From the NCBI RefSeq assembly GCF_029690045.1, contig NZ_CP121464.1, positions 4,774,001 through 4,838,000 of the forward strand: a stretch of DNA of 64,000 nucleotides, in the 5' to 3' direction. The notes beneath the pieces are model-generated. The model was not told the DNA's origin, did no database searches, and was given only the letters and a program-made list of their open reading frames with translations. Origin of the DNA: Janthinobacterium rivuli (GTDB lineage: Bacteria; Pseudomonadota; Gammaproteobacteria; Burkholderiales; Burkholderiaceae_D). The position numbers and the translations under genes were made by a program. Of the stretch, positions 8,350-40,373 are shown one piece after another. The first letter of the stretch is position 1. Every line of letters starts with the position of its first letter.

Positions 8350-8425
8350 TGGCTCCCCGACCTGGACTCGAACCAGGGACCTGCGGATTAACAGTCCGTC
8401 GCTCTACCAACTGAGCTATCAGGGA
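8350..8425 (-). tRNA. tRNA-Asn (GTT), copy 1 of 4
   Basis: A 76-base cloverleaf with encoded CCA. The 7-bp acceptor stem is TCCCTGA/TCGGGGA with one T-G pair. The D arm is GCTC/GAGC, the anticodon loop CTGTTAA gives GTT, and the T arm contains GGTTCGAGTCC. The sequence is identical to the copies at 19126, 20768 and 20979. Confidence 0.97.
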
Positions 8426-19125: not shown

Positions 19126-19201
19126 TGGCTCCCCGACCTGGACTCGAACCAGGGACCTGCGGATTAACAGTCCGTCGCTCTACCAACTGAGCTATCAGGG
19201 A
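19126..19201 (-). tRNA. tRNA-Asn (GTT), copy 2 of 4
   Basis: A 76-base cloverleaf identical to copy 1, with anticodon GTT and encoded CCA. Flanked by its own promoter and terminator. Confidence 0.97.
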
Positions 19202-19212
19202 AAAGAGGCCGC

Positions 19213-19241
19213 ATTCTATAGGGCAAATTTTCAGTTGTCCA
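19213..19241 (-). promoter_or_regulatory. promoter of tRNA-Asn copy 2
   Basis: TGGACA (19236-19241) and TAGAAT (19213-19218) on the minus strand are separated by 17 bases, with 11 bases from the -10 box to the tRNA. Confidence 0.75.
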
Positions 19242-19274
19242 GATTTACGCCAAAAAATTTATGCGCGGCGCCGC

Positions 19275-19601
19275 TCAGCCCGGACTTTCCCTGGGCTGAT
19301 AGTCAAATACCAGCACCCGCCCCAGCCATGGCTTGAGCAGATCGACAAAGGCCAGGTGGGCCGGATGGGCCAGGTACACGTCGCGCGCGCTGGCGCCATC
19401 GAAGGTCAAGGTAAAGCAATCGGTAAAGCCGTCATCGAGGCCTTCCGGACTGACATTCGGCCCCCATTCGAATTGCAGCACGCCGGGAATGCGGTGTTTA
19501 AGCTGGGAAAACTCATGGACCAGCTCGGCATGCTTGGCCGGTGTGATGTCCTCGAGAAAATCACACAGGACGATATGGCGCAACGGGATAGAACAGGTCA
19601 T
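19275..19601 (-). CDS. Dabb family protein (stress-responsive alpha/beta barrel)
   Basis: A 108-residue protein matching the dimeric alpha/beta barrel (Dabb) fold: an N-terminal strand RHIVLCDF, GVLQFEWGPNVSPEG, FTDCFTLTFDG and a C-terminal YLAHPAHLAFVD block. Members act in stress responses or as small enzymes; no specific role can be assigned. I chose ATG at 19601 because AGGAGAG lies just upstream; an upstream in-frame ATG at 19628 lacks one. Confidence 0.82.
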   Translation of the reverse strand: MTCSIPLRHIVLCDFLEDITPAKHAELVHEFSQLKHRIPGVLQFEWGPNVSPEGLDDGFTDCFTLTFDGASARDVYLAHPAHLAFVDLLKPWLGRVLVFDYQPRESPG

Positions 19602-19762
19602 GGTGGCAGCTCTCCTATGGGGTTGCATTCAGGATAGCGCAAAACGAAAAAGCACACAGGCAGCGGCCAGCCACGCCGCACATATTTTCTATATGCAACA
19701 TGTTATTCGGATAATATCGTCCATGGACACCCCCTACCTCAGGCAACCATCCATCTCAAACC

Positions 19763-20716
19763 ATGACAAAGTTACTGGCAGTGCTATTCATCACCTTGAT
19801 GCCATTTTCCGCATGCAAAGCGCAAGCGCTTGCCATCGACACGCTGCTGACACCGGACATCGGTGGCATCAAGCAGTTTGTGGAAATCAAAACAGATGAC
19901 TCAAAAAAACCTGTTCTGCTCTTCTTATCGGGCGGGCCGGGAAGTTCGATGATGAAGAATGCGGATGCCTTTACCGCCATCCTGAAAAACAGATTTACGC
20001 TGGTGCAATGGGATCAGCGCGATGCGGGAAAAACCCTGAAACTGAATCCGTCGCCTAGCCAGCCTTCCGTCGCGCAGATGGAACAGGACACCTACCAGGT
20101 CATCACGTTTCTGCAAAAAGAGCTCAAGCAGGAAAAAATATACTTGCTGGGCAGTTCCTGGGGCAATGTGCTCGGCTTTCATATCGTCAAACAGCATCCG
20201 GAACTGCTGCATGCGTATTTCGCCGTCAATCCCGTCATCAGCCAGCTGGCCAGCGAAAAGGAATTACTGAAAACCTTGAAAGTGCATTTCAAGGACAATG
20301 CCGTCGCCAGCCAGGAACTGGGAAGCATCACTTTCCCGTTTACCAGTGACGAAAGCATGTTTTATCTAAGGAAATGGCTTTTTTACAAGGATGGCAAGGA
20401 ATTTGCGACGAGTGAGGGCTTCAAGACGGGTTTTCTTCAATGGTCGAAAACCTGGTCGCCAGTCTGGAACGAAGTCATGAACATTGATCTGCCCAAGACC
20501 TTGCAAAGCGTTGACTGCCCCGTGTATTTCTTCGTCGGCAAGAACGACATCCAGACCTCCACTCGCATCACGCAAGACTATTTTGAGCAGTTGCAGGCGC
20601 CAAGGAAGGGGCTGTTTTTATTTGAACAGTCGGGACATCAGATACACCAGGATGAACCGGAAAAATTCCAGCGATCGATCATCGGGACCCTGCCCGCGCC
20701 AATCGCGTCGCGCTGA
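19763..20716 (+). CDS. secreted alpha/beta hydrolase, proline iminopeptidase-like (S33)
   Basis: A 317-residue protein with an N-terminal signal or lipoprotein signal (LLAVLFITLMPFSACKA). The oxyanion GGPG motif (LFLSGGPGSS), the WDQRDAGKT block, the nucleophile elbow GSSWGN, an acid in VGKNDIQ and the base in SGHQIH are all in S33-family order. Such enzymes remove N-terminal proline or cleave small esters and amides. Codon use is clearly more AT-rich than the neighbours (many AAA, ATA, TTT codons), suggesting recent acquisition. It lies between tRNA-Asn copies 2 and 3. Confidence 0.82.
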   Translation: MTKLLAVLFITLMPFSACKAQALAIDTLLTPDIGGIKQFVEIKTDDSKKPVLLFLSGGPGSSMMKNADAFTAILKNRFTLVQWDQRDAGKTLKLNPSPSQPSVAQMEQDTYQVITFLQKELKQEKIYLLGSSWGNVLGFHIVKQHPELLHAYFAVNPVISQLASEKELLKTLKVHFKDNAVASQELGSITFPFTSDESMFYLRKWLFYKDGKEFATSEGFKTGFLQWSKTWSPVWNEVMNIDLPKTLQSVDCPVYFFVGKNDIQTSTRITQDYFEQLQAPRKGLFLFEQSGHQIHQDEPEKFQRSIIGTLPAPIASR

Positions 20717-20721
20717 AATGC

Positions 20722-20753
20722 AAAAAGCCCAACCGGTAAAGGCTGGGCTTTTT
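20722..20753. terminator. bidirectional terminator shared by the hydrolase gene and tRNA-Asn copy 3
   Basis: AAAAAGCCCAACC and GGCTGGGCTTTTT form a long hairpin with A and T tracts on the two sides. It lies between the end of the plus-strand hydrolase gene and the 3' end of the minus-strand tRNA. Confidence 0.8.
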
Positions 20754-20767
20754 GCTACTACATGTTC

Positions 20768-20843
20768 TGGCTCCCCGACCTGGACTCGAACCAGGGACCT
20801 GCGGATTAACAGTCCGTCGCTCTACCAACTGAGCTATCAGGGA
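20768..20843 (-). tRNA. tRNA-Asn (GTT), copy 3 of 4
   Basis: A 76-base cloverleaf identical to the other copies, with anticodon GTT and encoded CCA. Confidence 0.97.
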
Positions 20844-20854
20844 AAAGAGGCCGT

Positions 20855-20883
20855 ATTATATAGGCCAAACCTGACGCTGTCCA
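20855..20883 (-). promoter_or_regulatory. promoter of tRNA-Asn copy 3
   Basis: TGGACA (20878-20883) and TATAAT (20855-20860) on the minus strand are separated by 17 bases, with 11 bases to the tRNA. Confidence 0.8.
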
Positions 20884-20943
20884 GATTTCCATAGGGAAAA
20901 TCTTATCTTGCGGCAAGCTATGCGCCGGCGGCGCAAAAACAAA

Positions 20944-20972
20944 AAAGGCCACGTTTTTCAACGTGACCTTTC
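20944..20972 (-). terminator. terminator of tRNA-Asn copy 4
   Basis: AAAGGCCACGTT pairs with AACGTGACCTTT (one mismatch). On the minus strand it is followed by a T-rich tract. It resembles the hairpin after copy 1. Confidence 0.75.
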
Positions 20973-20978
20973 GAATTC

Positions 20979-21054
20979 TGGCTCCCCGACCTGGACTCGA
21001 ACCAGGGACCTGCGGATTAACAGTCCGTCGCTCTACCAACTGAGCTATCAGGGA
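20979..21054 (-). tRNA. tRNA-Asn (GTT), copy 4 of 4
   Basis: A 76-base cloverleaf identical to the other copies, separated from copy 3 by only 135 bases yet with its own promoter and terminator. Confidence 0.97.
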
Positions 21055-22512: not shown

Positions 22513-24592
<2,080 letters not shown>

Positions 24593-24606
<14 letters not shown>

Positions 24607-30435: not shown

Positions 30436-31086
30436 TTACGGCCAGGCGGGCCGGCGCATGTGGAACAGGCTGTCCGGCCCGATCTCGAAATAATCGGCCG
30501 GACCGCCGCCGCGCAAGATCGGTGCGGCGGCCGCCGTGTCGTACACGCCATCGGTCAACAGGTGGCGCGCGATGTGCACGCCCACCACTTCCCCCAGCAC
30601 CAGCCAGCTGCCGACACCGTCGCCATTGACGCCTTGCAGCTCGATGATCTGCGTGCGCCGGCATTCGAACGAGACGGGACTTTCCGCCACGCGCGGCACA
30701 TTCACGATGCGCGAGACGGCCGGCGTCAGGCCGGCCAGCGCGAATTCATCGACTTCGGGCGGCGCCGGCGCGCAGCTGATATTCATCGCGTCGGCCAGTG
30801 GACGGGTGGCCAGGTTCCACACGAATTCGCCCGTCTGTTCGATATTGCGCAAGGTATCCTTGCGGCCGATGCTGGAAAAACCGATCAGCGGCGGATGGTA
30901 ATTGAAGGCGTTGAAAAAGCTGTACGGCGCCAGATTGAGCACGCCCTCGCTGCTGCGCGAGGCGATCCAGCCGATGGGCCGCGGCCCCACGATGGCGTTG
31001 AACGGGTCATGCGGCAGGCCATGGCCCTGTGCAGGTTCATAAAAGTGAATATTGTCGGCCACGCGCGTTCCTGAAATCGAAGTCAT
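30436..31086 (-). CDS. flavin reductase family protein (FMN-binding split barrel)
   Basis: A 216-residue FMN-binding split-barrel protein. Family hallmarks are VGPRPIGWIASRS, NLAPYSFFNAFNYHPPLIGFSS and TLRNIEQTGEFVWNLAT. Members reduce FMN with NADH for two-component monooxygenases or act as stand-alone reductases. It converges with the MFS gene, with stop codons almost touching, so it is not in that operon. Partner and substrate unknown. Confidence 0.88.
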   Translation of the reverse strand: MTSISGTRVADNIHFYEPAQGHGLPHDPFNAIVGPRPIGWIASRSSEGVLNLAPYSFFNAFNYHPPLIGFSSIGRKDTLRNIEQTGEFVWNLATRPLADAMNISCAPAPPEVDEFALAGLTPAVSRIVNVPRVAESPVSFECRRTQIIELQGVNGDGVGSWLVLGEVVGVHIARHLLTDGVYDTAAAAPILRGGGPADYFEIGPDSLFHMRRPAWP

Positions 31087-31155
31087 GGGCGCCCGGGATG
31101 GAACGCCTGGAGCGACAGCTTACTGGAATTATTCCCGACCAGCCACCCTGCCCCA

Positions 31156-33348
31156 TCAAAGCTCAGAGATGTGTTTGACAGCCCATTCATGGGCTTGGAC
31201 GATGTCGAGATGCAGGCTGGCAAACGACATCTTCAGCAAGCGCTCTGGCAGGGCCCAGTCCCATTTCGCGCGCCGCAAATTATGCTCCTTGTGCAGAAGA
31301 AGCTCAACAGCGGGCGGTGCCTCGCTGGCGAAGGCCAGCAAGCACCCAGCCACACGCTGTTCGCTTGCATCGTCAACCTTGACGGCAGGGCCTTGCGCTG
31401 TCGCTGCCAATCCCCGCGATTTCAGCACCAAAGCAATCGCCTCATTGGCATGGTCTCCCAGCCACGTAAAAACAAAAACACGGCCGCCGATCATCAACAG
31501 CGGCTTACGCGCCAGTCCGCAACGTTGAAACGTTTGACAACCTTCCAGCATGAGCTTTTTCGCCCCCTCATCCATAAAGGATAGCGGCAAGCCTGACTGG
31601 TACAGTTCCCGCATGCGTTCTCTGACTTTAGTATGGACATGTCCGCCACTGCCATTGAACAAGGGAGCACGACCTGTATTTGTTTTACCAACAAGAATAG
31701 TCTTGCTATCGTCGTCTATATCTTCCACCACCCAGGTCCTGCCCGCAAAAAGTATGTAGTCGCCAACACTGACCGAACTCGATACGGGCAGAGACCCAAG
31801 TACCCGGCTTGCATTGACGATACGGAACTCATCCTCCGTGGCGAACGCCGCATAAAAAGTGTAGTGATTTACCAGCCGTTCTCCCTTGGAGCCATGCAAT
31901 AGCAGGCCGGATGCCTCCTGCTGTAATAGTTCCATTTTCCCCAGGTGACGCAACAACTCGGCAAAATCCTTTTTTTCGGTACTCGCAAAAGGCCCTCTGG
32001 CGCAAAGGATATGGTAGGCATCGGCTGCCTGGATGCCACCGTGCTGGGCAATCAGCGACAACAACTGCTGGATCAGTGTCGACAAATGCAAGCCATGTGT
32101 TTTTGGCGGCTCGATCCAGCCGTCCAGCATCAAGCTGACCATCGCGCCAAATTCCAGCGTTCCTTCCCTTAATTGGTCCATCAGCTCAGATTCGACATGC
32201 AATTCACGTTCGGTAACATAACCGCGCAAGATGGCAGATTCCCCCGCACGCCGCCCGGAACGCCCCATGCGCTGGCGCATGCTGGCCACCGATGGCGGCG
32301 AGCCGATCTGCGCCACGCTCTTGACTGCGCCAATGTCAATACCAAGCTCGAGGGTATTGGTGCAGATGGCAGTGGCGCAACCTTCCTTGTTTTTCAAGGC
32401 CGCCTCTGTTTCCTCGCGAATTTCACGCGACAGGCTGCCATGGTGTGGCCAGAACTCATTGGGCGCCTTGGCGGCCTCGCATAGCCGGCGCAACGCATAT
32501 GTGTATTGTTCGACTTTGCCTCGGCTATTCGGAAAGATCAGGTTATTGGATCCTCGCAGCTTTGCAAACAGGTCTTGTACGATCGACAGCTCGGAGGCGG
32601 ACTCGCCATCCGGATCTTCGTCCGGTGGCGTCCCCATGTCGAGATAACCCTTGATACGTATGTTTAACGCGCCACGGTCGGCTTTTGATTCGATGATATC
32701 GACCGCTACGCCAGCATGCGGGCGCAAAAATTCTGCTCCCAGCGGCAGTTCGCCCAGCGTGGCCGACAAACCTATGCGCGGCACCGTACGTCCGGCAGCC
32801 TGCTCGATGCGCAGCATCAGCGACTGCAGTTGCTTGCCTCGTTCCGTACCGATAAAGGCATGCAGTTCATCGACCACGATGTAGCGCAGACGCGCAACGA
32901 TGCGCGGCATCTGGAAACCGCGATTGCACAGCATGGCCTCCAGCGACTCTGGCGTGATCAGCACCACTCCAGACGGCTGTTTGAAAAACCGCGTCTTGGA
33001 CGAAGATGAAATATCGCCGTGCCATGGCCAGACGGGGATTTCCAGCGTCTCGCACAAGCGTTCCAGCCTGCCGAACTGATCGTTGATCAAGGCCTTGAGC
33101 GGGCTGATATACAGGCACAATCCATGCTCTTCGCCAGCCTTCAGCATATTGCTCAGCACGGGGAAAAAAGCCGCTTCAGTCTTGCCTGCAGCAGTGGCGG
33201 CAGCAATGATGACATCGCTTCCACCACCGCTGATCGCAGCGATCGAACGCTCTTGTACATCGCGCAACTCGCTCCAGTTCTCCGCCCAGATCCAGCGCTG
33301 GATGCGCTCATCGAGCAGGGAGAACGACGACGAAAATGGGGCAGTCAT
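31156..33348 (-). CDS. sngC: Shango defence helicase SngC (Lhr/BrxHI-like)
   Basis: A 730-residue superfamily 2 DNA helicase. Walker A ATAAGKTEA is at 51-59, the DEAH-type box is VVDELHAF, and motif III is GLSATLGE. Motif V is TNTLELGIDIG and motif VI QRMGRSGRR, followed by a long C-terminal region of Lhr type. The same helicase family is paired with BrxD in type 2 BREX (BrxHI), but no PglX or PglZ is present here. Together with the TerB protein and DUF2791 ATPase it fits the third component of the anti-phage system Shango. Five bases separate it from sngB. Confidence 0.85.
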   Translation of the reverse strand: MTAPFSSSFSLLDERIQRWIWAENWSELRDVQERSIAAISGGGSDVIIAAATAAGKTEAAFFPVLSNMLKAGEEHGLCLYISPLKALINDQFGRLERLCETLEIPVWPWHGDISSSSKTRFFKQPSGVVLITPESLEAMLCNRGFQMPRIVARLRYIVVDELHAFIGTERGKQLQSLMLRIEQAAGRTVPRIGLSATLGELPLGAEFLRPHAGVAVDIIESKADRGALNIRIKGYLDMGTPPDEDPDGESASELSIVQDLFAKLRGSNNLIFPNSRGKVEQYTYALRRLCEAAKAPNEFWPHHGSLSREIREETEAALKNKEGCATAICTNTLELGIDIGAVKSVAQIGSPPSVASMRQRMGRSGRRAGESAILRGYVTERELHVESELMDQLREGTLEFGAMVSLMLDGWIEPPKTHGLHLSTLIQQLLSLIAQHGGIQAADAYHILCARGPFASTEKKDFAELLRHLGKMELLQQEASGLLLHGSKGERLVNHYTFYAAFATEDEFRIVNASRVLGSLPVSSSVSVGDYILFAGRTWVVEDIDDDSKTILVGKTNTGRAPLFNGSGGHVHTKVRERMRELYQSGLPLSFMDEGAKKLMLEGCQTFQRCGLARKPLLMIGGRVFVFTWLGDHANEAIALVLKSRGLAATAQGPAVKVDDASEQRVAGCLLAFASEAPPAVELLLHKEHNLRRAKWDWALPERLLKMSFASLHLDIVQAHEWAVKHISEL

Positions 33349-33353
33349 GTGCG

Positions 33354-34655
33354 TCAGAGCTTGAACGACGCGAACTCGTCGTCGGCTTCGACCTCGCTAT
33401 CAGACACCCCGGCCATATCAGGCATGACTTCAATGGCACCTAACAATTGCCGCCATGAAGCACCAGGATTTTGCTCCAGCACCGCCAGCAAATTGACAAA
33501 GGCTGTGATGGTCGTGCGCGGCGTACGAAAGTAACTGTCGCCGAGGCGCCGCGCGCAATGTTCCATGAAAGCCGGTAACGCTTCATCGGGCAGCAGATAT
33601 TTCTCAGCGATGCCATGTGCGTGCACATGACGCAGCTTGTCCAGCAGCACATAAAAGTCTTCGGGGCGCAAGCTCGCCAACCTCAGCACGGGGCCGCTGT
33701 AATCGACCAGACCGGCTACGGCAAAGGTATTTTCCGCCAGCCGGCTTTGCAGGGCAGGATAGCTGAACAGGCCGCGCCGCGTATCGAGAAGAAATTCCGG
33801 CGTACCGCCCAAAATGAATCCAAGTCCTACCGCCGTACCTTGCAAGGTGTCGTTCAGGATACGCAGTATCTGCTCATAGTTGGCGTTGCGCGCCGGCGTA
33901 TTGGCCAGCTTGTACAAATTGACCAGTTCATCAAGACAGACGACAAAGCCGGCGTAACCAGCCAGTCGCACGAAGCGGGCGAACAGCTTCAACTGATCGT
34001 AAAAAGAGGCATCGTCCACAATGGAACGCACGCCCAATGCCTGGCGCGCTTCAGTCTTGGTATTGAATTCACCGCGCAGCCAGCGGATCGCATCGGATTT
34101 CAATACCTCGTCACCTGCCTCGAACCCACGACAGTATGCCGCGATCACATCAGCAAAATCAAAACCGTTGACCATCTCCGTCAAATGTTCAAGCTTTTGC
34201 CGTATTACTTCCTCAGTACTGGCACCTTGCGCCAGCGCCTCGGTTTTGGCGTTGGCAATAAACCGTTCCACGATACCTGCCATAGCGCCACCATCAGGCT
34301 TGGTGCGGGTCGACAGATTGCGCATCAATTCCGCGTACAACGAGCGTGCCTGGCCGCCGGTCGCATGCAGGCGCCGGTCGGGATTCAGGTCGGCGTTGGC
34401 GGTCACCAGTTTTTTCTCCATCACCACAGAACGTATCAAGTTGAGAAAAAAAGTCTTGCCAGCGCCATATTCACCGATAACGAAACGTATCGTCGAACCA
34501 CCGTCAGCGATACGATCAAGATCTGCCACCAGCGTCTCGATCTCTGGTTTGCGACCAACCTGGATCAGGTGTTGGCCAGCACGTGGCACCACGCCCGCAC
34601 GCAAGGACTGGATCACCGCGTCGCGGTCTTTGGAACGAATGGCTGGAGCGTTCAT
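33354..34655 (-). CDS. sngB: Shango defence ATPase SngB (DUF2791 / BrxD-like)
   Basis: A 433-residue P-loop ATPase. Walker A is GEYGAGKT at 61-68, Walker B is GFVVCLDELVNLY, and GLGFILGGTPEFLLD resembles the sensor segment of DUF2791/BrxD ATPases. The family is known from BREX and other defence loci. Here it lies between a TerB-domain protein and an Lhr-like helicase. The ATG overlaps the sngA stop by 4 bases. It likely couples ATP use to assembly or DNA loading of the helicase. Confidence 0.87.
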   Translation of the reverse strand: MNAPAIRSKDRDAVIQSLRAGVVPRAGQHLIQVGRKPEIETLVADLDRIADGGSTIRFVIGEYGAGKTFFLNLIRSVVMEKKLVTANADLNPDRRLHATGGQARSLYAELMRNLSTRTKPDGGAMAGIVERFIANAKTEALAQGASTEEVIRQKLEHLTEMVNGFDFADVIAAYCRGFEAGDEVLKSDAIRWLRGEFNTKTEARQALGVRSIVDDASFYDQLKLFARFVRLAGYAGFVVCLDELVNLYKLANTPARNANYEQILRILNDTLQGTAVGLGFILGGTPEFLLDTRRGLFSYPALQSRLAENTFAVAGLVDYSGPVLRLASLRPEDFYVLLDKLRHVHAHGIAEKYLLPDEALPAFMEHCARRLGDSYFRTPRTTITAFVNLLAVLEQNPGASWRQLLGAIEVMPDMAGVSDSEVEADDEFASFKL

Positions 34656-37030
34656 TGTGCAAGTCTTTCAAGAATGTCGGGGTTAATATCGATCGGGTCA
34701 TCGCCTTCGGTGCAGGGCATATCGAACGCGTCGAAGCAGGCCTCGTTGAGCCGCTCCAGGGCGCCATCGAGCATGACGCCTGCATCGTGGGCAACGGGTT
34801 CCAGTTTAGAGCGCCGCCACGAAGCGCGCGACAGCAGGTGGCGGGAAAACGCGGCGTGCATGGCATCAAGACCAAGTAATCCGTCTTGACTGTCGAGTGG
34901 CGGCAGCGTGACTTCAGAAGTCGCTTCGTCCTGGAAGATATCGCCCAATAGCGTTGCCACCTGTTGACTGTCTTTTTGTAATGCCGCAATGCGTGCGAGA
35001 TCCAGAACAAAGCCGCCTGACGACACACTTGAACCGTTTGCTGGCGGATGTGCTGTCGCGGCAGCATGTACTTGACTGTACATTTTTTCATGCTCAACGC
35101 CCAACAGTGTGCAGACCTTTTCCAGCACCGCGATTTCCTGGCGTGTCGCAGGTGCTCCTACCATCGTGATGATGCAGTCGGCACAAGCATCCCGTGCGGT
35201 CAGTGGGAGCGCCGCAATACGACGTTTGAAGGAACTCAGCGAGACTGGTTGCAGCAGAATAAGGCGCGCCATCAGGCGCTGCTGCTGGTGGGGCGTCAAC
35301 TGGCGCCAAGTGGTGATCTGCGCCTGGCAAATTGGCCATTTATGGTCAGAATACACACCTTCCGACTGCGCCATGGCAATCAGCAACTCCAGGCTCAGCA
35401 AGGCAGTATCGTAAAACGGTGCACCATCGCCTGCTTCGTCCGACGCCACCACGCGGTACAGCGCCACCCGTTCGGTCAAAGCTGCGTTGCCGGCCATGGA
35501 CAAGATGTCCGGCTCCATGGCAATCTGCTGCGCCAGCAATGCCGCCGCCAAAGCACGCAAACTGTCTTTGCCGATCCCGTCCGATGCACCAAAATGCCGT
35601 GCCAGTTCATTGACAGACATCACCAACACCGCCTCGCCCAGGCTCGCATTCACGTAACACAGAGCTTGCTTCGCCGCCTCCGGCCATAGCGAATATGGCA
35701 ATAGTACCCAGGCATCCAAGGTTGTTCGTCTATCAGGACGATGTTCGATGAAACGACTATAAGCGTCCAATTCAGCCGAGCAGGTATCGATCAACTTTTG
35801 CAGCATTTGCTGCGGAGCGCTGGCCACGGTGAGATCGGGAATATCGCCTAGCACCACACTCCTTCCAGCGCCGTCTTTCAATCCGGGTGATGCGGGCGAA
35901 TACGGCAGGCACAGCTTGTGCGACGTCGAAACAAGCGCGATACCATCGCCATGCAGCCGCCTATAAGTGAGGCGAAACAAGCTTTCAAATTCTTCAGGAC
36001 AGCGGCTTGCCGCAGTGCGCAATATCAGCGCCGGATCGTAACGGACCCACGCCCAAGCCATATCTACGGTCAGTAGCGTCTTGTCGCGACATGCTTGCCC
36101 AAGCGCCACCCGCAAATGCAGGGGCATGCCATCTTCAGGACTCAGATCTGGTATCGGCTGCAGATATAAGCGCTCTGGATTGCTTGCCAATTGCAGAACT
36201 TCTAAAAGAGACATGCAGTGACGCGAAAACAATCCAGACTTGCCGCCATAATGTTTATGCAGCCGTGTGAGCTCCTTGATAATCTGCGGTATTTCCACAT
36301 CAATGGCACGGTGATTTTCCGCATCGATCAATACTCGCCGTTCGAGTCCATAAAAGAAGGCGAATACATAAGCGATATCTGCATCTGGACTACTACGCCC
36401 ATCGGCAAGCCAACGCAAGTAAGCGCCGCGCTGCTGAGGCAAGGCATCCGAATAACTCGACCAGTAGAAATTCACGGGAGTCGCATAGTCGCTTCCAAAA
36501 TCGACACTCTTGCCAGGATCGATCAGGGCGGGATCAACCTTACCATTATTTCCTGGCAAGCTTTGCCCAACATAAATCATCCCGCCAGAAATCAACAGAC
36601 CGCCAATCTCCACACTTTCATGACGCCCTATCCATTGAGCGACAGGGGTATGCAAGGGCGGCGGCGGGGGAATGCGGTAGCCAGATGGATCAGCCAATAG
36701 AACCTCGCTTGTTTTGTCCTGATATGTTGATGCTGGCGGCACAAAATCACTTACGATGCTTGCCACGGGCAAAGATGCGGTCGATGAAACTGCCGCCTTT
36801 GCCGGGGGCGGCACGAAACAGGATAGCAATTCAGGCGGCGGAGAGCGCCGCAATTTCAAAGTGCGCGCGCGATAGCGGCATCCTACATACAGTGCACCGG
36901 CAATCAACGACAGCAGCAAAGCTGGGCTCATCAAATGGTAAGCGGCAAATGCTAGCAATACATTGAAAAACATCCAGTGCCATGATGAGACACGCTCTAA
37001 CAAAAACCGGAGTCTTTTCTTCCACCTCAC
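34652..37030 (-). CDS. sngA: Shango defence TerB-domain protein SngA
   Basis: A 792-residue protein. Two membrane segments lie near residues 16-52 (MFFNVLLAFAAYHLMSPALLLSLIAGALYVG). A TerB_N-type region follows (PVAQWIGRHESVEIGGLLISGGMIYVG...DPALIDP). A TerB-like helical domain (LELLIAMAQSEGVYSDHKWP and GAPATRQEIAVLEKVCTLLGV) and a TerB_C-type end complete it. TerB proteins are linked to membrane-associated stress and phage-defence systems. The start is a GTG at 37030 and is uncertain, since no strong ribosome site is visible. GC content is visibly lower than in flanking genes. Confidence 0.82.
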   Translation of the reverse strand: MRWKKRLRFLLERVSSWHWMFFNVLLAFAAYHLMSPALLLSLIAGALYVGCRYRARTLKLRRSPPPELLSCFVPPPAKAAVSSTASLPVASIVSDFVPPASTYQDKTSEVLLADPSGYRIPPPPPLHTPVAQWIGRHESVEIGGLLISGGMIYVGQSLPGNNGKVDPALIDPGKSVDFGSDYATPVNFYWSSYSDALPQQRGAYLRWLADGRSSPDADIAYVFAFFYGLERRVLIDAENHRAIDVEIPQIIKELTRLHKHYGGKSGLFSRHCMSLLEVLQLASNPERLYLQPIPDLSPEDGMPLHLRVALGQACRDKTLLTVDMAWAWVRYDPALILRTAASRCPEEFESLFRLTYRRLHGDGIALVSTSHKLCLPYSPASPGLKDGAGRSVVLGDIPDLTVASAPQQMLQKLIDTCSAELDAYSRFIEHRPDRRTTLDAWVLLPYSLWPEAAKQALCYVNASLGEAVLVMSVNELARHFGASDGIGKDSLRALAAALLAQQIAMEPDILSMAGNAALTERVALYRVVASDEAGDGAPFYDTALLSLELLIAMAQSEGVYSDHKWPICQAQITTWRQLTPHQQQRLMARLILLQPVSLSSFKRRIAALPLTARDACADCIITMVGAPATRQEIAVLEKVCTLLGVEHEKMYSQVHAAATAHPPANGSSVSSGGFVLDLARIAALQKDSQQVATLLGDIFQDEATSEVTLPPLDSQDGLLGLDAMHAAFSRHLLSRASWRRSKLEPVAHDAGVMLDGALERLNEACFDAFDMPCTEGDDPIDINPDILERLAQ

Positions 37031-37092
37031 ATGCTTCTTTCGGCAATGAATACAGGTAAGTTAAAGGTAATGCAATGAAAATAGGATGCTTT

Positions 37093-37120
37093 ATTGTATA
37101 GAAATGTTTGCATTAGCGAA
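37093..37120 (-). promoter_or_regulatory. possible promoter of the Shango operon
   Basis: On the minus strand TTCGCT (37115-37120) and TACAAT (37093-37098) are 16 bases apart, about 65 bases before the sngA start. An inverted repeat GCATT/AATGC overlaps the -35 box and could be an operator. The whole leader from 37031 to about 37180 is AT-rich. Read by eye; only moderate match. Confidence 0.3.
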
Positions 37121-37304
37121 TGCTTATCTTGCCTTGCGGATTTTTTTGCAACGTCACATCAACTGCCCGCTGGTTATACAAGCACCAGTGCGACTTTTGC
37201 CTACCGCCTCGCGCACGGACTACCAAGGCGACAATTGTATGGCGCGCAGCACCACGCCTCGCTTATGATGGGACAACTCAACCCTTATCATTCCGCTACC
37301 GCCC

Positions 37305-38366
37305 ATGCCTACCCTCACGCTGCATCAGAAAGTGTTCCTGCTCCTCCTGAGCATCGTCACCATCGGCTTCGGCTGGATACTGGCGCCGTATGCGGGCGCC
37401 ATCTTCTGGGGCGTCATCCTGGCGATCCTGTTCGCGCCCGTGTACCGCTGGCTGCTGCGGAAAACCAAGGGCCGCGCCGGCCTGGCGTCGCTGCTGACCT
37501 TGCTGCTGATCATCGTCATCGTGATCCTGCCGCTGTCGCTCATTTCCGTGTCGCTCGTGAACCAGGCGGCCAGCGTCGTGGAAATGGTGCGTTCGGGCGA
37601 GATCACGGTCGCCATGTTCTTCAATAAAATCATGGCCGTGCTGCCGCAATGGCTGATCAATTTGCTCGACCGCTTCAACCTGACCAGCCTGGCCAGCCTG
37701 CAGGACAAGCTGGCCGAGGGCGCCACGCAGGTGAGCCAGGTGGTGGCGGTGAAAGCCATCAACGTGGGCCTGTACACCTTCGAATTTCTCACCAGCCTGT
37801 GCATCATGCTGTACCTGCTGTTTTTCCTCATGCGCGATGGCTCGACCCTGTCGGCCCGCATCAAGGGCGCCGTGCCATTGAGCCGCAAGTACAAGCAGCG
37901 CCTGTTCACCAATTTCACCACCGTGATCCGCGCCACCGTGAAAGGCAACATCCTCGTGGCGATCGCCCAGGGCGCCCTCGGCGGGCTGGCGTTCTGGTTC
38001 CTCGACGTGCCGGCGCCCCTGCTGTGGGCCGTGCTGATGGCCTTCCTGTCGCTGCTGCCGGCCGTCGGCGCCGCCCTCGTCTGGGCGCCCGTGGCCGCCT
38101 ATTTCCTGGCCACCGGCGCCATCTGGCAAGGCGCGGGCCTGGCCGCCTTCGGCGTCTTCGTCATCGGCCTGGTCGACAACGTGCTGCGCCCCATTTTGGT
38201 CGGCAAGGATACCAAGATGCCCGACTACGTGGTGCTGCTGTCGACCGTGGGCGGCATGGCCCTGTTTGGCCTGAACGGCTTCGTCATCGGCCCCGTGGTG
38301 GCAGCGCTGTTCATCGCCTCGTGGGATCTGTTCGTCTCGGCCAGCGAATTCCAGGCCGAGGATTGA
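37305..38366 (+). CDS. AI-2E family transporter (PerM/YdiK type)
   Basis: A 353-residue membrane protein with about eight helices. The N-terminal pair is VFLLLLSIVTIGFGWILAPYAGAIFW, and the conserved C-terminal block VIGLVDNVLRPILVGKDTKMPDYVVLLSTVGGMALFG is the family signature. Some members export autoinducer-2 or act as sodium/proton antiporters; most are uncharacterised, so the name does not prove quorum signalling. It is followed at once by a membrane-anchored orphan on the same strand. Confidence 0.9.
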   Translation: MPTLTLHQKVFLLLLSIVTIGFGWILAPYAGAIFWGVILAILFAPVYRWLLRKTKGRAGLASLLTLLLIIVIVILPLSLISVSLVNQAASVVEMVRSGEITVAMFFNKIMAVLPQWLINLLDRFNLTSLASLQDKLAEGATQVSQVVAVKAINVGLYTFEFLTSLCIMLYLLFFLMRDGSTLSARIKGAVPLSRKYKQRLFTNFTTVIRATVKGNILVAIAQGALGGLAFWFLDVPAPLLWAVLMAFLSLLPAVGAALVWAPVAAYFLATGAIWQGAGLAAFGVFVIGLVDNVLRPILVGKDTKMPDYVVLLSTVGGMALFGLNGFVIGPVVAALFIASWDLFVSASEFQAED

Positions 38367-39144: not shown

Positions 39145-39450
39145 TCAGGCAAACACGGGCCGGAAAAAACTGCGCTCATAACTGATGATGCAGCGCGTCT
39201 CTTCGGCATAGCGGAAGGCGGCCTGGCATTCGGCGTCCTGCATCGAGTCGCTGCGGTACTGCTCGTACAAGGCCAGGCTGGGGAACGAGAACATGGCCAG
39301 CGCCACATTGCTGGCGCCCTCGGATGGCAAAAAATAGCCGTGGTGCTGGCCGCCGAAGCGTTCGACCAGCGGTATCCACAGCTTGCCGTAGGCTTCGAAT
39401 TCCCGCAATTTATACGGGTCGATGATGTAACGCAGGTAACAGGTGATCAT
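39145..39450 (-). CDS. NIPSNAP family protein
   Basis: A 101-residue protein of the NIPSNAP ferredoxin-like fold: YLRYIIDPYKLREFEAYGKLWIPLVERFGG at the start and FPSLALYEQYRSDSM in the second half. Function in bacteria is mostly unknown. The ATG overlaps the stop of the WD40-like gene by 4 bases, so it is the last gene of a small operon. Confidence 0.85.
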   Translation of the reverse strand: MITCYLRYIIDPYKLREFEAYGKLWIPLVERFGGQHHGYFLPSEGASNVALAMFSFPSLALYEQYRSDSMQDAECQAAFRYAEETRCIISYERSFFRPVFA

Positions 39451-40373
39451 GCGGTTTCCTTGTAAACGTTCAGATCCATCAGCATGCCGGACTCCCAGGA
39501 GCCGATGGCGGTCAATGGCGAGCCAGGCACAAAATCCAGCGCGCAGGGATAGGTAACATCTTCCTGCGCCAGGACGGCAAGCCCGGGCCAGGCGTAGAAC
39601 AGCAGCTTGCCCTTGCCGATGCGTCCCAGCGCGCTGCCGTCGGGCAGCCAGCGCAAGGCGTCGCCCGTGCCGGCGCCCGCCTCCACGCGCGTCGTGGCCA
39701 GCACGCGGCCATCGTCCATCGCATGCACGGATAAGAATTCCTCGCCGCCGGTGTCATGCAGCACGGCCAGGCGCTCGCCGTCGGGCGATGGCGCGCACGA
39801 CGCCAGGCTGGGCAGCGACAGCACCTTGCGCCCGCCTCCCGCCTGCAAGGGCCAGTCCCATACGCTGCAGTAGTCTGGCGGCTGCGCCTGCCCTTCCTCC
39901 ACCGATTTGACGCCATGCAGGACCAGCAAACGCCGCCCGCCATCGATGGCGTAGGTTGCGCGCAGCATTTCGCCCGGGTGCTCGTGCTTGAACAGTACTT
40001 CGCCCGTCTGCGCATCGCGCACCCGCAAGCAGCCATCCCAGCCACCGTCGGCCAGATACCGGCCGCACGGCGACCACGCGGGGCCGCTGCCTTCGCCATC
40101 CTTTTTATTCTGGAAGCTCACCAGCACTTGCCCCGCTACGGCATCGAGCACGGCCAGCTGGCCCGTCGTGCTCTTGATGGCCAGCCGGCGGCCGTCGGGC
40201 GAGAATGCCATACTGGAGCAATGCGCGATGAATTTGCCGCGCCACAGTTTCTGGCGCACCGCCACGTCCCACAGCACCAGGTCGCGCCCCAGCACGGCCA
40301 GGCGCGTGCCATCGGGCGAAAAGCGCACGCCGTAGCTGCAGCCCAGCTTCAAGGGCTTGCGCGTAACCGTCAT
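39447..40373 (-). CDS. WD40-like beta-propeller protein
   Basis: A 308-residue protein with repeated propeller blades: VRFSPDGTRLAVLGRDLVLWDV, MAFSPDGRRLAIKSTTGQLAVLDA and WSPCGRYLADGGWDGCLRVRDAQTGEVL, each with the SPDG...L..WD pattern. Seven blades would fit the length. No signal peptide, so probably cytoplasmic. Such proteins are interaction platforms. It overlaps both neighbours (GNAT upstream, NIPSNAP downstream) by 4 bases; no specific role is known. Confidence 0.82.
   Translation of the reverse strand: MTVTRKPLKLGCSYGVRFSPDGTRLAVLGRDLVLWDVAVRQKLWRGKFIAHCSSMAFSPDGRRLAIKSTTGQLAVLDAVAGQVLVSFQNKKDGEGSGPAWSPCGRYLADGGWDGCLRVRDAQTGEVLFKHEHPGEMLRATYAIDGGRRLLVLHGVKSVEEGQAQPPDYCSVWDWPLQAGGGRKVLSLPSLASCAPSPDGERLAVLHDTGGEEFLSVHAMDDGRVLATTRVEAGAGTGDALRWLPDGSALGRIGKGKLLFYAWPGLAVLAQEDVTYPCALDFVPGSPLTAIGSWESGMLMDLNVYKETA

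Follow-up and report, generated by a model that had tools for sequence, protein, structure and literature searches.

The DNA analyzed here, referred to as the window, is a stretch of 64,000 nucleotides of Janthinobacterium rivuli (contig NZ_CP121464.1, positions 4,774,001 to 4,838,000). Between positions 31156 and 37030 it carries three consecutive genes on the minus strand, arranged sngA-sngB-sngC as is the order in Shango. The first, sngA (34652-37030), encodes a 792-residue protein with Pfam TerB_N and TerB_C domains; sngB (33354-34655) encodes a 433-residue ATPase of the BrxC/BrxD family, and sngC (31156-33348) a 730-residue SF2 helicase akin to BrxHI and Lhr. All three reading frames are open and of full length in the ORF list of the window. 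The original prediction described three overlapping genes, which holds for sngA and sngB (4 bases) and fails for sngB and sngC, whose coordinates leave a gap of 5 bases.

When the three proteins were run through PADLOC, each had its own Shango family as top match: SngA at 260.2 bits (1.8e-77), SngB at 611.7 bits (2e-184) and SngC at 891.7 bits (1.2e-268). Querying GTDB genomes with SngB gave 402 relatives. The analysis used the best 80 of them, a set in which distant relatives are thus absent; in all 80, sngA, sngB and sngC occur in the same order and on the same strand. Judged by its sequence, the locus is a genuine and complete Shango operon, ordinary in kind. This confirms the observation of the original prediction, which had recognized the Shango set in the combination of a TerB_N/TerB_C protein, a BrxD-like ATPase and a helicase, and supports its interpretation.

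The operon lies within a block at 31131-37229, delimited by alignment with empty sites of relatives, with its left edge after 31130 and its right edge between 37207 and 37229. Inside the block, a leader on the minus strand (37031-37229) precedes sngA and presumably holds the promoter. A consensus promoter scan of 30900-37400 gave 2 sites against 3.9 expected, none of them in the leader, and both promoter and terminator scans stayed at about shuffle level. Outside the system, the left neighbor is a flavin reductase-like gene (30436-31086, minus strand; Pfam Flavin_Reduct), and the right neighbor encodes an AI-2E family transporter (37305-38366, plus strand; Pfam AI-2E_transport).

Domain architecture and variation of the Shango proteins

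Pfam and hydropathy divide SngA into a hydrophobic segment (residues ~20-52), TerB_N (138-341, 167.5 bits), a diverged central TerB region (~548-650) and TerB_C (670-790, 100.3 bits); a sequence search of the PDB gave a best match of only E 0.84. The hydrophobic segment forms a single stretch with a 19-aa Kyte-Doolittle peak of 1.89, flanked by basic residues at both ends and broken around H32-P36, a pattern that fits a two-helix hairpin. The long form of the gene starts at a GTG codon, and the protein-database entry begins 19 residues later, on the methionine with which the hydrophobic stretch starts. With a 19-residue mean of at least 1.6 near the N-terminus as threshold, and with two proteins at contig ends dropped, such a stretch is present in 71 of the 78 assessable SngA proteins from the best 80 of 402 loci, and the predicted N-terminal hydrophobic helices are therefore a feature of the family and not peculiar to the window. 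Among SngA relatives in the protein database, where some entries may be incomplete, a hydrophobic N-terminus occurs in 61 of 119, with two separate peaks in 42.

Within the genus, SngA varies in its parts. Three of the eight Janthinobacterium carriers (genomes G035, G039 and G015) have an SngA without the hydrophobic N-terminus; in G035 a piece resembling the first residues of the window protein can be read by eye upstream. Residues 421-540 are largely missing in two carriers, with 5 of 120 residues aligning in G015 and 39 of 120 in G026. These missing parts are therefore either dispensable, or the copies are decaying. The N-terminal segment together with the linker that follows is also the least conserved part of the protein, its commonest residue having a mean share of 0.18 against 0.56-0.60 in TerB_N and the TerB_C end.

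The central region scores 19.5 bits against the TerB model (PF05099), under the cut-off of 24.4, while precomputed Pfam annotation gives TerB (PF05099) in 100 of the 120 relatives listed, the window's own protein among them. Aspartate occupies two sites of this region in most of the 91 aligned relatives (75 and 76, respectively), and we take these signature aspartates to be metal-binding. The window SngA has glutamate and proline there. None of the eight genus carriers keeps both aspartates, the first being present only in G035 and the second only in G015, which counts against a metal-dependent SngA.

SngB matches Pfam BrxC_BrxD with 521.8 bits and contains GEYGAGKT as Walker A and VVCLDE as Walker B-like motif; no PDB sequence matched it at E 0.001. 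SngC contains the SF2 helicase motifs AAGKT, DELH, SAT and QRMGRSGR and matches Pfam DEAD and Helicase_C, with WH_Lhr under the cut-off. Its PDB search returned 94 sequences, headed by an ATP-dependent DNA helicase (1.8e-28). Apart from helicase-type matches such as ResIII and Cas3-like_C_2, no nuclease or methylase domain was found by Pfam in SngA, SngB or SngC at E 0.01.

Compared with the seven other genus copies, the window proteins are 82-100% identical in SngB and 64-98% in SngC; SngA is 43-98% identical in six copies, and the SngA of G015 has no match over half its length. A most conserved SngB with more divergent SngA and SngC would be expected if a conserved core motor worked with partners that evolve faster. 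When the window is compared with G035, SngC identity in 60-residue bins is 77-97% over residues 1-360 and 38-77% over residues 361-720, and over the latter range G035 is no nearer to the window than the other genus copies are. A near N-terminal half joined to a far C-terminal half suggests exchange within the gene, involving the C-terminal half of sngC (31156-32268).

Proposed mechanism of action

None of the papers listed in literature searches was dedicated to the mechanism of Shango, and our proposal draws on related proteins. In the text available from one study (PMC12839542), BrxD is placed among the ORC-Cdc6 AAA+ ATPases and suggested as a possible loader of BrxHI, from which we infer that SngB is the loader and SngC the motor. 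The placement of BrxHI differs between sources, being Ski2-like in that text and in a separate clade in the relevant part of another (PMC12278908), where SngC shares a potentially separate clade with BrxHI, DruE and DpdJ.

According to this proposal, SngB, as an ATPase related to ORC/Cdc6-type BrxD, would load or activate SngC on invading phage DNA, and SngC, as a BrxHI/Lhr-related SF2 helicase, would unwind or strip that DNA. Its action would either stall phage DNA replication or lay the DNA open to host nucleases, which are invoked because neither a nuclease nor a methylase domain is apparent in the operon itself. SngA, with its TerB_N-TerB-TerB_C architecture, may serve as both tether and regulatory scaffold, usually keeping SngB-SngC at the inner membrane, the site of phage DNA entry. 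Complex formation, DNA loading, the site of action and phage defense by the window copy are all inferred.

A different function for the same parts would be abortive infection, in which SngB-SngC would sense phage DNA or replication intermediates and the N-terminal segment of SngA would damage the inner membrane. The hydrophobic N-terminus of most SngA proteins (71/78 in the best 80 of 402 loci) and the lack of an own nuclease domain in Pfam at E 0.01 are compatible with such an effector, and Hachiman is described as sensing through its helicase in the text available from PMC12278908. However, the putative effector segment is absent from three of the eight genus carriers and belongs, together with the linker, to the least conserved part of SngA (0.18 vs 0.56-0.60), so that we regard abortive infection as rather unlikely.

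The same variation could mean that what this genome has is a relic of the operon, inactive or in decay, given that three of the seven other carriers lack the SngA hydrophobic N-terminus, two lack much of residues 421-540, and the window SngA has neither TerB signature aspartate. Against this stand the three window frames, open, of full length and with intact motifs, and the copy in G018, which is 96-100% identical in DNA and has the same gene lengths; decay of the window copy is accordingly improbable.

Chromosomal neighborhood and history of the block in Janthinobacterium

SngB is encoded in 8 of the 40 Janthinobacterium genomes, the window's included, and had no match in the other 32. Neighborhood stretches were obtained from 31 of the 39 genomes other than the window's (all except G003, G020, G021, G022, G028, G030, G031 and G037). 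In all eight carriers, Shango lies in one neighborhood between uvrB (22513-24606 in the window) and purA, within the stretch toward a phosphoribosyltransferase-like gene, purA and hisZ, and with sngA facing the purA side. The names purA and hisZ were confirmed with NCBIfam; the phosphoribosyltransferase-like gene was named by eye and had no NCBIfam match at 1e-20. The exact neighbors vary among carriers: on the other side of the operon, six have the flavin reductase gene, and G026 and G027 have uvrB. Of the best 80 (of 402) loci, five have the neighboring genes within 6 kb at an identity of at least 68%, and all five belong to Janthinobacterium.

The site is naturally empty in 18 of the 24 non-carriers examined, where the matches to the flavin reductase and AI-2E genes lie 153-197 bp apart. 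In alignments of the window with 11 of these 18 sites, similarity stops at 31130 in every case and restarts at 37208-37230. The empty allele of G007 (L017) holds 52 bases of its own between the edges, and the block therefore took the place of a short stretch or gave way to one. No repeat common to both edges exceeds chance: exact direct matches reach at most 6 bases, compared with a mean of 7.5 in shuffled sequence. Inverted matches reach 8 bases, a value taken without a shuffled control, and searches of each edge separately gave one direct pair of 12 bases, to the left of the block. About 10 kb separate the block from the closest tRNA, and an Rfam scan found four tRNAs only.

Other features of the surroundings were recorded alongside. 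At the same neighborhood, ten loci (L014, L017-L019, L021-L024, L038 and L041) carry a variable insert, an ORF with a maximum length of 541 aa, whose copy in L017 matches a Dyp-type peroxidase at 95.9 bits, just under the cut-off of 100.5; this copy was one of the non-Shango inserts among the neighbors, which were clustered and read by eye in a search for a general defense hotspot. A WD40-like beta-propeller protein of 308 aa (39447-40373 in the window) occurs in 25 of 33 stretches. At 19126-21054, three tRNA-Asn copies, with a fourth at 8350, lie around an alpha/beta hydrolase gene (19763-20716) of low GC (51-53% in 1-kb bins), and an ORF that resembles this hydrolase by eye is present in G027 (L012), past transaminase-like and uvrB ORFs.

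The block has a GC content of 55.8% against about 64% in its flanks (0.558 vs 0.647 and 0.641), as the original prediction had noted, and GC3 ranges over 0.57-0.64 in its genes and 0.80-0.91 in three genes of the flanks. The G018 copy likewise has a lower GC than its surroundings, as do those of four of the five other carriers measured (0.554-0.596 vs 0.618-0.657), and block and surroundings are alike in G027 (0.584 and 0.581); this comparison covers the carriers other than G026, and G015 over sngC and sngB only.

In a tree of SngB and SngC built from 33 hand-picked rows, the eight genus copies form one clade with support of 100/100. In an SngB tree of 47 rows, which includes 26 of the 120 database proteins listed, they fall within a clade of 16 rows (support 100/99), whose other eight rows are database proteins, one from J. 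violaceinigrum and seven without an organism name; no other genus is named among them. Because of these eight database rows, the genus rows do not occupy a single side of a branch (7 changes). The exception is L076, a 5.9 kb contig of a metagenome-assembled genome (MAG) labeled J. lividum, whose SngB is 74% identical and sits on a long branch outside the genus clade.

On a DNA tree of purA and the phosphoribosyltransferase-like gene, Shango presence requires 6 changes, against a mean of 6.3 for shuffled labels, 269 of 500 shuffles being as low as 6. Seven carriers are among the 28 rows of this tree, and only 6 of the 25 inner branches are starred; L014 (G039), L023, L030, L031, L033 and L034 were left out because full genes were not available for them. 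In the operon, the window and G018 share 96-100% DNA identity (300-base bins) and the same gene lengths, and the surroundings reach 91-93% in the flavin reductase gene, 93-96% in the left transporter, 94-98% in the AI-2E gene and 97-99% in purA. This pattern agrees with the block having been exchanged, in either direction, among members of the genus through homologous recombination, with an old residence and repeated loss or regain; as far as these comparisons reach, Shango seems to be a resident of the genus that comes and goes as a block through recombination.

Low GC had been taken in the original prediction as suggesting acquisition, and the discreteness of the block and the failure of SngB to match in 32 of the 40 genomes of the genus agree with that part. 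Recent arrival from outside the genus would explain these features and the GC difference (55.8% vs 64%), and the distinct SngB (74%) of the J. lividum-labeled L076 indicates that other Shango types may enter. Recency is disfavored by the grouping of the eight copies (100/100 in the 33-row SngB and SngC tree), by the absence of a named other-genus member from the 16-row clade of the 47-row SngB tree, by the single neighborhood in 8/8 carriers, and by the finding of the neighboring genes (at least 68% within 6 kb) only in five Janthinobacterium loci of the best 80 of 402. Because the eight copies group together and share one neighborhood, low GC is no sign of recent arrival, and we consider a recent acquisition improbable.

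Returning to residence and recombination, a fuller account of the genus can be ventured tentatively, its elements taken jointly. Janthinobacterium Shango would be an integrase-free presence/absence allele of the uvrB-purA neighborhood that pre-dates the diversification of the genus and is shuffled by recombination; its parts (the C-terminal half of sngC, the SngA N-terminus and the TerB aspartates) would evolve piecewise, and it would work without a canonical TerB metal site. A simpler joint statement seems to us probable, namely that a complete Shango operon forms a presence/absence block in one neighborhood and acts through SngB as loader, SngC as motor and SngA as tether and regulator.

The three-gene Shango system itself is already known; what is added here is one neighborhood with clean empty alleles, together with naturally occurring SngA and SngC variants in a single genus. 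These variants of one operon at one place include SngA with and without the hydrophobic N-terminus and with differing remnants of the TerB signature. Combined with the clean empty alleles of close relatives, they offer a direct test of which parts Shango needs.

Relation to BREX and other known systems

Type 2 BREX (Pgl) resembles Shango in having a related ATPase and helicase, BrxD and BrxHI, encoded by adjacent genes, as described in the available text of PMC12839542; Shango adds the TerB_N/TerB_C protein. The original prediction called the ATPase-helicase pair the same as BrxD-BrxHI. The two pairs are related, but the Shango models score far higher in PADLOC, with 612 bits as SngB against 154 as BrxD and 892 bits as SngC against 392 as BrxHI, and the NCBIfam BrxD model reaches 151.6 on SngB against a cut-off of 350. 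In the genome, a single contig of 6.33 Mb, the window's sngB is the only PF10923 (BrxC/BrxD) match, so that no BrxC was found beside a BrxD; PglZ, predicted to be lacking, had no match in the genome, and the same search matched in 2 of the 14 control genomes. With only one BrxC/BrxD-type gene and no PglZ, the system is Shango and not BREX, and membership in type 2 BREX is rejected on these results together with the SngB and SngC scores. Neighboring BREX genes, which the original prediction had named as a finding that would overturn it, did not turn up in this search for PglZ and BrxC/BrxD. The further idea of a partial or stripped-down type 2 BREX, to which the secondary BrxD and BrxHI matches might point, can be dismissed for practical purposes, as the SngB and SngC models lead by hundreds of bits, BrxD stays at 151.6 against 350, and neither PglZ nor further BrxC/D genes were found.

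The Shango systems of Pseudomonas aeruginosa PA14 and Escherichia coli share the families of the window copy, a TerB-type protein, an ATPase and a DEAD/DEAH helicase, in the descriptions available, and the P. aeruginosa PA7 system, among the best 80 of 402 relatives, has the same gene order. According to the accessible text of PMC10250203, PA14 Shango introduced into PAO1 reduces the plating of many phages, though not all, by 10-100 fold, and anti-phage protection is stated for E. coli Shango as well, citing a 2022 paper. The settings differ: PA14 Shango lies at the cDHS1 hotspot (PMC10250203) and E. coli Shango in genomic islands (excerpts of PMC11096173), whereas the window copy is near purA, in one uvrB-purA neighborhood, with no mobile gene in the block. 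The window SngA further departs from other Shango in its diverged central TerB. Hachiman (HamAB) is similar in having an SF2 helicase within a small defense operon, but no HamA-like nuclease is among the PADLOC matches shown for the window, and in the available text of PMC12278908 HamB is placed near the Ski2 helicases and SngC with the BrxHI, DruE and DpdJ group.

Phage records contained no SngB relative at E 1e-5. On plasmids, SngB relatives occur in 694 of 72,556 records, 545 of the 694 being typed as conjugative. The plasmid records are largely from Klebsiella (452 of 694) and Salmonella (144 of 694), and in both plasmid regions L123 and L124 the genes for a TerB-type protein, an ATPase and a helicase are consecutive.
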